Below are positions 12,571-52,958 of a stretch of 64,000 nt of DNA, piece by piece (positions within the stretch are counted from its first letter, which is position 1; every line of letters starts with the position of its first letter). Both the position numbers and the translations under genes were made by a program. The DNA comes from Gemmatimonas sp. (GTDB lineage Bacteria > Gemmatimonadota > Gemmatimonadetes > Gemmatimonadales > Gemmatimonadaceae), in assembly GCA_025361705.1 (NCBI GenBank), contig JANYJW010000025.1, positions 1 to 64,000 of the forward strand, in the 5' to 3' direction. The notes beneath the pieces were generated by a model, which was not told where the DNA came from, made no database searches, and worked only from the letters and a program-made list of their open reading frames with translations.

Positions 12571-12972
12571 CTACCAGACGATGGCAAGGAGCTCGCCACC
12601 GGTGCGCGCCTGGCGCGCCTGGCGGTCGGTCATCAGCCCCTGCGAGGTGGACAGGATGGCGACGCCCAGCCCGTTGCGAACGCGCGGAATCTTCGTCACG
12701 CCGACGTACCTGCGCAGACCAGGACTCGAGACGCGCTGCAGCTGCCGGATGACCGGCTGGCCGCCCTGCGCGTACTTGAGAATCACGCGCAGCAGGGTCG
12801 TCCCCTGCTCCGTCGTGACATGCTTGTAGTCCGTGATGAAGTGCGTCTCCTTGAGGAGGCGGGCGATTTCGGTCTTCACCTTCGAAGCCGGCATGTCCAC
12901 GCGGCGGTGCTTCGACGAGACAGCGTTCCGGATTCGCGTGAGCATATCAGCGATGGGATCGGTCATGCTCAT
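12571..12972 (-). CDS. rpsH: 30S ribosomal protein S8
   Basis: Primary binder of 16S rRNA helix 21 (133 aa), starting MTDPIADMLTRIRNA after an initial Met-Ser. The C-terminal STSQGLMTDRQAR is the S8 signature; Gly-to-other changes are not seen. In E. coli S8 represses its own operon through a mimic near rplE; no such site could be confirmed here. The rpsN-rpsH gap (13094-12973) holds a heptad palindrome. Confidence 0.97.
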   Translation of the reverse strand: MSMTDPIADMLTRIRNAVSSKHRRVDMPASKVKTEIARLLKETHFITDYKHVTTEQGTTLLRVILKYAQGGQPVIRQLQRVSSPGLRRYVGVTKIPRVRNGLGVAILSTSQGLMTDRQARQARTGGELLAIVW

Positions 12973-13033
12973 GGTAGTTCTCTGATCTCCTCTGGTTTCC
13001 GTCGTCGACGGACCTGTAGGAAGTGGGGAAAGG

Positions 13034-13086
13034 GATGGCAGACTTCAGATGGCTGATGGCAGGTCTGCCATCGGACGTCCGCCATC
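13034..13086. repeat. heptad palindrome element (rpsN-rpsH gap)
   Basis: Left arm units GATGGCA (13034), GACTTCA (13041), GATGGCT (13048) and GATGGCA (13055) are followed by a short GGTC centre and right arm units TGCCATC (13066), GGACGTC (13073) and CGCCATC (13080). GATGGCAGAC at 13034-13043 and GTCTGCCATC at 13063-13072 are a perfect 10-bp inverted repeat. It starts 9 bases beyond the rpsN stop, inside the transcribed operon, so it could fold in the mRNA. The same design recurs at 20353-20446 and 52874-52936. Confidence 0.85.
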
Positions 13087-13094
13087 AGGCAGCC

Positions 13095-13400
13095 TTACCA
13101 GCTGGCCTTGCGAACACCCGGCAACAAGCCGTTGTTCGCCATCTCGCGCAGCGCAATGCGGCTCAACCCGAATGCACTCTCGAACCCGCGCGACCGGCCC
13201 GTCATCTGGCAGCGGTTGCGGATGCGCGTCTTTGACGAGTTGCGCGGCAACCGCTGCAACGCGAACTGCGCCGCCGTCTTCTCGTCGTCCGACGCGCTCG
13301 GGTTCTGGATCACCGCCTTCAGCGCCTTCCGCTTTGCGGCGTAGCGCTGGGTGAGCTGCTTGCGGCGCTCGTTCTTCTCGATGCTGCTCTTCTTGGCCAT
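13095..13400 (-). CDS. rpsN: 30S ribosomal protein S14 (zinc-independent form)
   Basis: A 101-residue S14 beginning [16 protein letters not shown]. The C-terminal [13 protein letters not shown] has a single Cys, not the CxxC pairs of the short zinc form, so this is the long, zinc-free type. It assembles in the 30S head. It is preceded by rplE (12-base gap), the normal spc position. Confidence 0.97.
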
Positions 13401-19875: not shown

Positions 19876-19990
19876 GGATTCCTCTGCGTTAGTCACGGCC
19901 GCCCGCGCGGACTGCGCGTGGCTGCATGGCCGTTGGACTCTTAGCCGACAGTCGGTCGCCGGACGACGGAACAGTGACCACTCCCGCCTG

Positions 19991-20011
19991 CCGTCCACCG
20001 TCTACCGTCTA
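19991..20011. repeat. heptad run immediately 3' of rpsJ
   Basis: Three consecutive plus-strand units, CCGTCCA (19991), CCGTCTA (19998) and CCGTCTA (20005), end one base short of the rpsJ stop codon. No matching inverted arm was found in the rest of the 137-base rpsJ-rplC gap. The unit resembles CTATCCA/CTATCTA near 59452, differing in the same two positions. Confidence 0.75.
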
Positions 20012-20352: not shown

Positions 20353-20446
20353 GACGTCAGAGGGCGGAGGGCAGATGGCGGAACGCGTTCCCAGGGAACA
20401 CATCGGCCATCTGCCTTCTGCCATCAGCCATCAGCCATCAGCCATC
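20353..20446. repeat. heptad palindrome element (tuf-rpsJ gap)
   Basis: Left arm: GACGTCA (20353), GAGGGCG (20360), GAGGGCA (20367), GATGGCG (20374). Right arm: GCCATC (20406), TGCCTTC (20412), TGCCATC (20419), then AGCCATC three times (20426-20446). GGCAGATGGC (20370-20379) and GCCATCTGCC (20406-20415) form a perfect 10-bp inverted repeat; the 26-base loop contains a second palindrome, GTTCCCaGGGAAC (20387-20399). It begins about 6 bases 3' of the tuf stop and lies within the transcribed region. Confidence 0.88.
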
Positions 20447-24263: not shown

Positions 24264-24357
24264 GGCTTGGGAGCACGATTGAGGAGAGGAAATCCGGATC
24301 GCGATTCGGGATTCCGCTTGGGGGTTTCGTTGGGTGATTCGTGGGACGCTGGCACGG

Positions 24358-24456
24358 GTGCCCGGTGGGTGCCCGGTGGGTGCCCGGTGGGTGCCCGGTG
24401 GGTGCCCGGTGGGTGCCCGGTGGGTACCCGGTGGGTGCCCGGTGGGTGCCCGTCGC
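24358..24456. repeat. 11-bp tandem repeat, nine copies, 3' of the DUF2339 gene
   Basis: Nine copies of GTGCCCGGTGG start at 24358, 24369, 24380, 24391, 24402, 24413, 24424, 24435 and 24446; the seventh begins GTACCC and the ninth is partial. The array ends 3 bases before the stop codon of the DUF2339 gene. The period is not a multiple of three and no open frame uses it. The near identity suggests recent slippage. Confidence 0.95.
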
Positions 24457-24459
24457 CCG

Positions 24460-26403
24460 TCACCCCCCACCGGGCGGAGGCCCGGCATCCGGTCCGGCAT
24501 CCGCCCGGTACCACCACGCGACCCCGAGCAGGAAAGCGCCGACGCCCAGGTAACTCCCCACCCGCAGCGCGATGTGCTGCACGGTGAACGCCTCGGCGAT
24601 CGCCACCACGGCCGCCCAGACCGAAAGGCCGAGCCCCGTCTGGCGCAGATGCCCCGAGGCCAACACCCGGCCGCGCCACAGCACCACCACACCGCACACC
24701 GCGTAGTACACGATCAGCAAAAAGGTCGCCGCATCGGCGCTGAAGGCGTGACCCAGCTCGGCCCGCCACCAGACGAAGCAGGCCACCGCCACCATCACCT
24801 GCGCCACCACCGGCAGCCGCAGCCGCCGCTCGATGACCGTCGTGGTGACATCGGGCATGAGCCGGGCCGCAATGACCAAGCCGGCCACAAAGAGCGCCAG
24901 CGACGCCGAGCTGGCCGACGTGAACGGTACGCCGAAGCCAATCGCCTCGGACAGCCGCAAGAACCCGTGCCAGAAGCCGACCACGGCCGCCACTGCCGCG
25001 GCCGCTGCGATCACCGGCTGCCCTTCACGCCGCGTCACCCACGCTGCGGCAATCGCCACGCCGGCACAGGCCGGCGGGATGGCGTCCGGCCACTGCTGGA
25101 CGAGCAGCACCGCGGCCCACGTCGCCACGACGCCGCTGACCGTCAGCAACACGCCGCGCCGTTCTCCCTGTTCGCCGAGTGCGGCGGCGGCGTAGCCGAC
25201 CATCCAGAGGCCCGCCACTGCCGCATGCACCGCCCCGCCGAGGTCGGCTCCGCGGGTGGGTACGAGCGCCAGCATGGCACGCAGGAGAAACAGCAGCGGC
25301 ACCGCCAGCGCGCCGCCGGTCCAGAACAACGTCCCCGCCCGCGGCAACTCGCGCGCACCGTACAGGGCGAGCGCCGCGCCAGCGACGGCAAGGAGCATCA
25401 GGTCGGGCGCGCTCGACAACATCGCCAGCGGTGTGCCGCCCTGCGTCGCGTGCGCTCCGCCCGTCACGGCCATGGTTGCGACGAGCGCAAGCGCAATCCA
25501 CGGACGCAGCGGCCGTTGCGTGAGCACCAGCGCTGACGCGACCAGGATCAGCATGAACAGCTGCGCGAGGTCGCGGTTCAGCCACGCCAGGTCGCCGCGA
25601 TACCCCACAAGGACCTGGGCGTATGCGAATGCCGCGAGCACCACCAGCATGGCCACGAGCCGCCAGGCGCGCGCCGCCATGGTGCGCAGCGCCATCGTGC
25701 TCACCACCAGTCCGTACGCCGCGAGCATCACGAAGTGATCGACGCCGGATCGCTGCACGAATGGCGCCAGGAGCGCGCCGCCGACGCCCACCGCGAACAG
25801 CTGCTCGCTGTCGTCGCGCAGCGCGAGCAGCGAGAGCGCGACGGACGCGACGTCGGCGATGGCGAGCGAGGCCCAGGTCGGAACGAGGCCGAGTTGCGGG
25901 CCGGCGCCCCACGCGACGACGTGCACCACGGCGACTGCGAGCGCGAGCAGCGTATGCCCGAATGGCCGGTTGTCCCGCGCGCGAATCACCAGGCCGGCGA
26001 CGGCGAATGCGGCGGCGAGCAGGGCGCCCAGCGCGACGCGCACCACCGGCGTCAGCAGGCCTTGCCGCAGCGCCCACGAGACCAGCGCACCGGCGCCCAT
26101 GACGATGGTGATTACCGCAAGCGACAGCGCGCCGTACCGGCCGATCAATCGTTCGAGCGGGTTCGATGTCGCGACGCGAGCCGCAAGCGGCGCCGGCACC
26201 CGGGGCTCGGGCCGCCGCTCATTGATGGGCGGCGGCGTCACCTGCGTCGGCGCGTGCTGAGGTGCCGTCCCGTCGACCGCCAGTGGCTGGCCTCGTGCTT
26301 CTGCGTCGCGCAGGGCCGCCAACGTAAGACGCGCCTCGTCGAGTTCACGGCCCAGCCGAGCAAGCGTGTGTTCGAGATGACGAAAATCGCCGGACTCTGT
26401 CAT
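24460..26403 (-). CDS. DUF2339 domain-containing membrane protein
   Basis: A 647-residue protein. The N-terminal charged coiled-coil (about 5-35) and Pro-rich linker are followed from about residue 88 (RLIGRYGALSLAVI) to the end by many closely spaced hydrophobic segments. This layout and the LI/GRY start of the membrane part match the DUF2339 family, whose function is unknown (envelope-related roles have been proposed for some members). It sits between rpsL-rpsG and fusA, where almost all bacteria have no gene. A strong terminator separates it from rpsG. Confidence 0.8.
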   Translation of the reverse strand: MTESGDFRHLEHTLARLGRELDEARLTLAALRDAEARGQPLAVDGTAPQHAPTQVTPPPINERRPEPRVPAPLAARVATSNPLERLIGRYGALSLAVITIVMGAGALVSWALRQGLLTPVVRVALGALLAAAFAVAGLVIRARDNRPFGHTLLALAVAVVHVVAWGAGPQLGLVPTWASLAIADVASVALSLLALRDDSEQLFAVGVGGALLAPFVQRSGVDHFVMLAAYGLVVSTMALRTMAARAWRLVAMLVVLAAFAYAQVLVGYRGDLAWLNRDLAQLFMLILVASALVLTQRPLRPWIALALVATMAVTGGAHATQGGTPLAMLSSAPDLMLLAVAGAALALYGARELPRAGTLFWTGGALAVPLLFLLRAMLALVPTRGADLGGAVHAAVAGLWMVGYAAAALGEQGERRGVLLTVSGVVATWAAVLLVQQWPDAIPPACAGVAIAAAWVTRREGQPVIAAAAAVAAVVGFWHGFLRLSEAIGFGVPFTSASSASLALFVAGLVIAARLMPDVTTTVIERRLRLPVVAQVMVAVACFVWWRAELGHAFSADAATFLLIVYYAVCGVVVLWRGRVLASGHLRQTGLGLSVWAAVVAIAEAFTVQHIALRVGSYLGVGAFLLGVAWWYRADAGPDAGPPPGGG

Positions 26404-52752: not shown

Positions 52753-52873
52753 GGTGCTCCTCTGACGTTCAGGCCGGGCGCCCATCGCCCAGCCGACTCC
52801 CACGGTGTGATTTGCGAGGTCGTGGTGGCCCTCGGTGCGTGAGTGCGGCAGCCGTCACACGCGGCACTCCAGA

Positions 52874-52936
52874 GATATCAGACGTCAGAATGCAGATGGC
52901 AGATCATCTGCCACCTGCCCACTGCCTTCTGCCATC
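52874..52936. repeat. heptad palindrome element (nusG-rplK gap), nine units in register
   Basis: Exactly 63 bases of nine heptads. Left: GATATCA (52874), GACGTCA (52881), GAATGCA (52888), GATGGCA (52895). Centre: GATCATC (52902). Right: TGCCACC (52909), TGCCCAC (52916), TGCCTTC (52923), TGCCATC (52930). TGGCAGATcATCTGCCA at 52897-52913 is a perfect core palindrome; GATGGCA and the last TGCCATC also pair. It lies 58 to 120 bases past the nusG stop, in the transcribed gap. Confidence 0.93.
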
Positions 52937-52958
52937 TCTTCGGCGGCATTGCGGTCGA

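Follow-up and report, generated by a model that had tools for sequence, protein, structure and literature searches.

What fills the unusually long gap between rpsN and rpsH in an operon whose genes otherwise nearly abut? The window analysed here, 64,000 nt of a Gemmatimonas sp. contig (JANYJW010000025.1; source assembly of 2.97 Mb, 93% complete), carries in its spc operon rpsN (ribosomal protein S14; 13095..13400; PF00253, E 4e-25) and rpsH (ribosomal protein S8; 12571..12972; PF00410, E 6e-47), both on the minus strand like the other ribosomal genes and separated by 122 bp. The nearest named relatives by rpsH are Gemmatimonadota, including Roseisolibacter. A first-pass annotation had noted that most other gaps are short, which holds, since in the ribosomal block most are at most 16 bp; it had also proposed that palindromic heptad elements account by themselves for the few long gaps, inserting or expanding as a unit.

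Direct reading of the letters at 13034-13086 (GATGGCAGACTTCAGATGGCTGATGGCAGGTCTGCCATCGGACGTCCGCCATC; minus strand) confirmed a palindrome of period 7 with heptads GATGGCN / NGCCATC, composed of three GATGGC and two GCCATC units. Its outer arm GATGGCAGAC (13034..13043, plus strand) is complementary over a perfect 10 bp to the matching arm GTCTGCCATC (13063..13072, plus strand), as had been described. Read along the mRNA, rpsN comes first, the palindrome begins 8 nt past its stop codon, and after about 10 nt more a conserved leader precedes rpsH. The 72-nt upstream part of the gap has a self-complementarity score of 15, about 7 s.d. over its own shuffles, and lag 7 is its strongest lag. Clusters of five GATGGC/GCCATC units occur only twice in the window, here and in the tuf-rpsJ gap. 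The palindrome is followed by CCTTTCCCC, which lacks the U-rich tract expected 3' of the stem of an intrinsic terminator. An Rfam search of the gap returned only microRNA and CRISPR matches at chance level, and no family resembling the leader.

In 11 of 11 genomes of the genus a homologous palindromic heptad element occupies the same place, in a gap of 122-132 nt. Lag 7 is the best lag in all 11, with head-to-tail 7-nt units above chance, as in a heptameric simple sequence repeat. An alignment of these elements (A2) is almost gap-free within the arms except at the apex, and the heptad letters vary among species (GATGGCA, GATGGGA, GACGGTA, GACGGTT and others). The variation falls on the third and sixth letters (GA-Y-GG-N-R), and the opposite arm changes with them. 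Two-sided arm changes numbered 33, versus 14.5 +/- 3.1 in shuffles (0 of 500 as high) and 6-11 in slid versions of the palindrome, a test of real against slid that leans towards structure because the structure was read from the same sequences. Watson-Crick pairing of the arms was 75% in register, 57-78% when they were slid by 7, 14 or 21, and 14-38% at other offsets; pairing is nearly as good at the heptad slides, and the stem can therefore slip by whole heptads. In the rpsN-rpsH element G-U pairs make up 6%, no excess over the 8% of A-C mismatches, and many of the elements have a zero-loop dyad (AGATCT, TGATCA, CGATCG) at the apex, which is odd for an RNA hairpin. Given these apices and the missing G-U excess, the symmetry looks DNA-like rather than that of one RNA strand.

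The palindrome shares its gap with a second conserved feature. Some 52 nt (12974-13025, minus strand) form a separate rpsH leader with an S8-operator-like hairpin, recognised by covariation and by a match to our covariance model R1 (59.2 bits, E 2.6e-15). The hairpin itself (UUCCUACAGGUC...GAAACCAGAGGAG; 12987..13022, minus strand) has the pattern UUCCUA-GGUC...GAWACC-AGGAG, and its 3' side contains the rpsH Shine-Dalgarno sequence AGGAG, paired with UUCCU. The 25 leaders of the model, chosen by eye from parsed gaps, align on UUCCUANAGGUCC...GGAWACCAUAGGAG; in the RNAalifold structure UUCCU is paired with the Shine-Dalgarno AGGA and 7 of 12 pairs have two-sided changes, counts that lean towards structure because of that choice by eye. 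Stronger evidence than these pair counts is the occurrence of one match per genome in genomes outside the model set. R1 had a single match in each of 94 of the 297 phylum genomes, and the leader is conserved throughout the class. Among the family genomes compared, all 80 have it at 0-19 nt from the start of rpsH, hence on the S8 mRNA as in an S8 operator, and in other families it adjoins rpsH in 13 of 14 genomes, the remaining one (G237) having a weak match elsewhere.

The internal loop of the hairpin, GGUC / GAAACC (12994..13014, minus strand), is made of invariant columns that resemble 16S G597, U598, C599 / G639, A640, N641, A642, C643. All 25 leaders have G-U-C / G-A-W-A-C, which reproduces the G597-C643 pair, N641, the invariant A642 and the 598-640 and 599-639 pairs of the S8 core of helix 21, as that core is described in PMC4176348. 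The E. coli 16S record reads A595 A596 G597 U598 C599 / G639 A640 U641 A642 C643 U644, and this core, AAGUC/GAUACU (595-599/639-644), is identical in one phylum genome (G244); the leaders of G244, G355 and others carry AGUC...GAUACU. Because the hairpin copies the S8 site of ribosomal RNA, it is a candidate for S8 autoregulation, in which S8 would bind the leader RNA and, judging by this identity of letters, probably switch off its own gene. The leader, and not the palindrome, is what compares with the S8 operator of the E. coli spc operon (PMC10931766, PMC4176348): both are mRNA copies of the helix 21 S8 core within the same operon. The sites differ, at the rplE start in E. coli and here directly before rpsH, with the Shine-Dalgarno sequence within the stem. 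In E. coli 33 nt separate rpsN from rpsH. It is established there that S8 retroregulates upstream spc cistrons (PMC10931766), and the same source describes spc regulation beyond the E. coli type as unknown.

The rpsN-rpsH gap was then compared in about 55 genomes beyond the genus. Without the element, the leader makes up a gap of 54-85 nt; examples are Roseisolibacter (54 nt), G004 (58), G112 (63), G126 and G092 (64 each) and G152 (67). Against the 122-132 nt of the 11 genus species, this contraction bears out the proposal of the first-pass annotation that the element comes and goes as a unit. Its stronger proposal, that the element accounts for the gap, was not supported: the unit is gained and lost, but roughly half of the gap lies outside it, the leader staying when the palindrome goes. 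A long gap filled by unrelated sequence in a sister species, which would have spoken against the proposal, was looked for and not encountered within the genus. Beyond it, palindromes of period 7 but unrelated sequence often take up the position, and "one inserted element" is therefore too simple a description. The best of nine lags tested was 7 in 13 of 28 upstream parts of at least 35 nt (8 or 9 in some others), the units including GGCTATT, GAACGAG, GTGACTC, GTTGGGA, GGTAGTA and GGGAGCC, and other orders of the class have ACGAATT, AAGTGCT and ACAGGGG palindromes in the same place. A few genomes with gaps of 13-21 nt have neither palindrome nor leader. A strict link between palindrome and S8 leader had to be dropped: several genera retain the leader but no longer the palindrome, and in a few genomes (G040, G009 and G196) a palindrome stands without the leader. 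In G040 an A-C mismatch is repeated in every unit.

Related elements occur in other gaps of the window. A sister heptad palindrome lies in the 131-bp tuf-rpsJ gap (20360..20446, minus strand), and each of the 10 genus members examined has heptads at this position. The 137-bp rpsJ-rplC gap holds GACGGTA units that are only partly palindromic (19943..20010, minus strand), and heptads are again present there in all 10 genus species examined. A fourth heptad palindrome, its units read in the sequence, lies between nusG and rplK (52871..52939, minus strand). Here too the elements do not explain the gaps alone, as the rpsJ-rplC gap likewise contains a second conserved hairpin, AGUCCAACGGCC...GGCCGYGACU, upstream of rplC (19891-19939, minus strand). 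Its nine pairs are nearly invariant in 15 genomes, and it is possibly an L3 or L4 leader.

Genome-wide, the array GCCATCN (GCCATCNGCCATC) occurs 310 times in the window's own genome, versus 15 times for a reversed-pattern control. In another genome (G162) it is the reversed control pattern, CTACCGNCTACCG (heptad GACGGTA), that is frequent instead (337 versus 2). The dominant heptad type thus differs between species and many genomes contain several types; a single heptad per species was rejected, as GACGGCA, GATGGTA and GACGGGA arrays are found together in G032. Gaps at genome scale were defined with a simple codon-model gene caller, with uncurated gene starts set in this analysis, on mostly draft assemblies. 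So defined, the intergenic DNA of the own genome and of G052 has a prominent period 7, with harmonics at 14 and 21 in the own genome. The lag-7 excess of the own genome is +0.051 in co-directional gaps (CI 0.029-0.076), +0.101 in convergent gaps (CI 0.052-0.153) and nil in divergent gaps (+0.002; CI -0.014 to 0.018), and G052 is alike, a few of its divergent gaps (6 of 24) containing period 7. Lag-7 repeats fill 36 of 160 co-directional gaps, versus 2.6 in dinucleotide shuffles. The excess peaks in the first 45 nt past the stop codon, and the strong heptad stems of the own-genome co-directional gaps start a median of 5 nt past it. On the transcribed strand the heptad stems of co-directional gaps have 47 G-U pairs versus 50 A-C mismatches, so that this test does not support selection at the RNA level, and none of the 11 strong stems in the own co-directional gaps has a U-rich tail. 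The convergent gaps contain ordinary terminator-like hairpins that heptad arms flank or extend (L128 8465-8637, L136 15025-15267), and in two other genera (G100 and G036) period 7 lies mainly in convergent gaps. Period 7 was not seen in G093, of another family, a negative weakened by the gene caller, which accounted for just 70% of the genome.

Tentatively, our first choice is to read the palindrome as a post-gene stem-loop, one that sits at the boundary of an S8-controlled segment and either punctuates or protects the message upstream. It would be one copy of a dispersed class of such stem-loops, built of 7-nt tandem repeats in inverted orientation and typically beginning a few nucleotides past a stop codon, whose letters may drift by slippage and local homogenisation while arm complementarity is kept. 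The leader hairpin, mimicking the S8 site of 16S helix 21, would sequester the rpsH Shine-Dalgarno sequence, and excess S8 bound there would block translation of rpsH and later cistrons. If the heptad stem-loop just upstream blocks 3'-to-5' exonucleases, or otherwise punctuates the transcript, the rplN...rpsN part would survive repression, instead of undergoing retroregulation of the E. coli style. The role suggested derives from REP/BIME palindromes, for which protection of upstream mRNA has been proposed and which are likewise extragenic stem-loops after genes. The heptad palindromes differ from these in their 7-nt tandem units with changing letters, and no Y1 transposase is found in this genome. 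Position past stop codons, homology in 11 of 11 genomes, arm covariation, recurrence with unrelated heptads elsewhere and the leader data all favour a stem-loop. The missing G-U excess counts against it, because selection on RNA should favour G-U, and so do the zero-loop apices, the near-equal pairing at slides of 7, 14 or 21, and the uncoupling of palindrome and leader.

The strongest competitor, a close rival that we regard as quite possible, is that these are functionless, self-perpetuating DNA repeats: slippage would expand heptads, fold-back (quasi-palindrome) template switching would make and repair the second arm, and the repeats would persist only at sites where the harm is small, past the end of a gene and ahead of any downstream leader. 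Both the lack of G-U bias and the zero-loop apices are easier to explain in this way than by a stem-loop, and the equal pairing in all heptad registers, the A-C mismatch in every unit of G040, the many losses among genera and the differences in dominant heptad between species also fit a functionless repeat. Less easily accommodated are the retention of the rpsN-rpsH element in all 11 genomes and of heptads at tuf-rpsJ and rpsJ-rplC in all 10 species examined. The two-sided changes, far above shuffles, weigh on the same side, though templated repair predicts them likewise. We consider it unlikely that the same architecture recurs in unrelated letters across orthologous gaps because a class-wide process, sensing the repeat length of 7 and inverted symmetry and indifferent to letters, keeps rebuilding palindromes after genes; if true, this would mean either that a machinery generating such repeats awaits description or that a trans-acting factor reads a 7-nt period.

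Other readings meet more direct obstacles. The absence of a Y1 transposase from the genome and of a U-tract 3' of the stem argues that the palindrome is neither a REP moved by a RAYT transposase nor a canonical terminator. Although dispersed palindromes in extragenic space are what RAYT activity would leave, PF01797 was unmatched in 9 of 11 genus members including this one (G000), the two exceptions having one match each, a fragment at a contig end (G032) and a copy with one internal stop (G201); for this genome that origin is largely refuted and hardly probable at all. A terminator or attenuator lowering expression of later genes would suit a stable stem right past stop codons and the arms flanking terminator-like hairpins in L128 and L136, but it is improbable given an element within an essential operon and the uniformly missing U-rich tails. 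Conservation that is DNA-symmetric, without strand bias, and centred on zero-loop dyads might instead mark a site for a nucleoid or structural protein, which is distinctly improbable because the letters are not constant, either within a genome or from one genome to another, and because divergent gaps show period-7 repeats only weakly or not at all.

A literature search for intergenic repeats of Gemmatimonadota found nothing specific. The TAACTGA heptamer repeats of Beggiatoaceae (MacGregor 2015, PMC4679880) are alike in that 7-bp units are repeated in tandem at many intergenic sites, some of them near ribosomal-protein genes, and in an abundance that depends on the species. They are direct repeats of one fixed unit, mostly just upstream of start codons, whereas the Gemmatimonadota heptads form inverted arrays of a changing unit just past stop codons. 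According to the available part of PMC4692102, heptamer repeats are over-represented in many bacteria and little characterised; the heptameric G-rich repeats of Xanthomonas and Nostoc, and cyanobacterial heptanucleotide repeats, share the over-representation of unit length 7 in intergenic DNA. For the former, that part proposes a G-quadruplex structure and describes no inverted arrangement at gene ends. The heptads described here are covarying palindromes tied to gene ends; their letters turn over among species and their architecture does not, which makes it possible to distinguish slippage, selection and templated repair.

Repeats of other kinds were seen as well. In the str operon of the window, between rpsG and fusA, a DUF2339 membrane-protein gene (24460-26322, minus strand) is followed, beginning a few nucleotides past its stop codon, by nine near-perfect copies of the 11-mer GGGTGCCCGGT (24356-24452). 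In G052 a dispersed, MITE-like palindrome of about 150 bp, GGAACGGGGAGGGGGTAGAGGC...GCCTCTACCCCCTCCTCGTTCC, is repeated after genes (L194 3242-3420, L187 14049-14338, L184 2109-2379 and L190 14190-14344).
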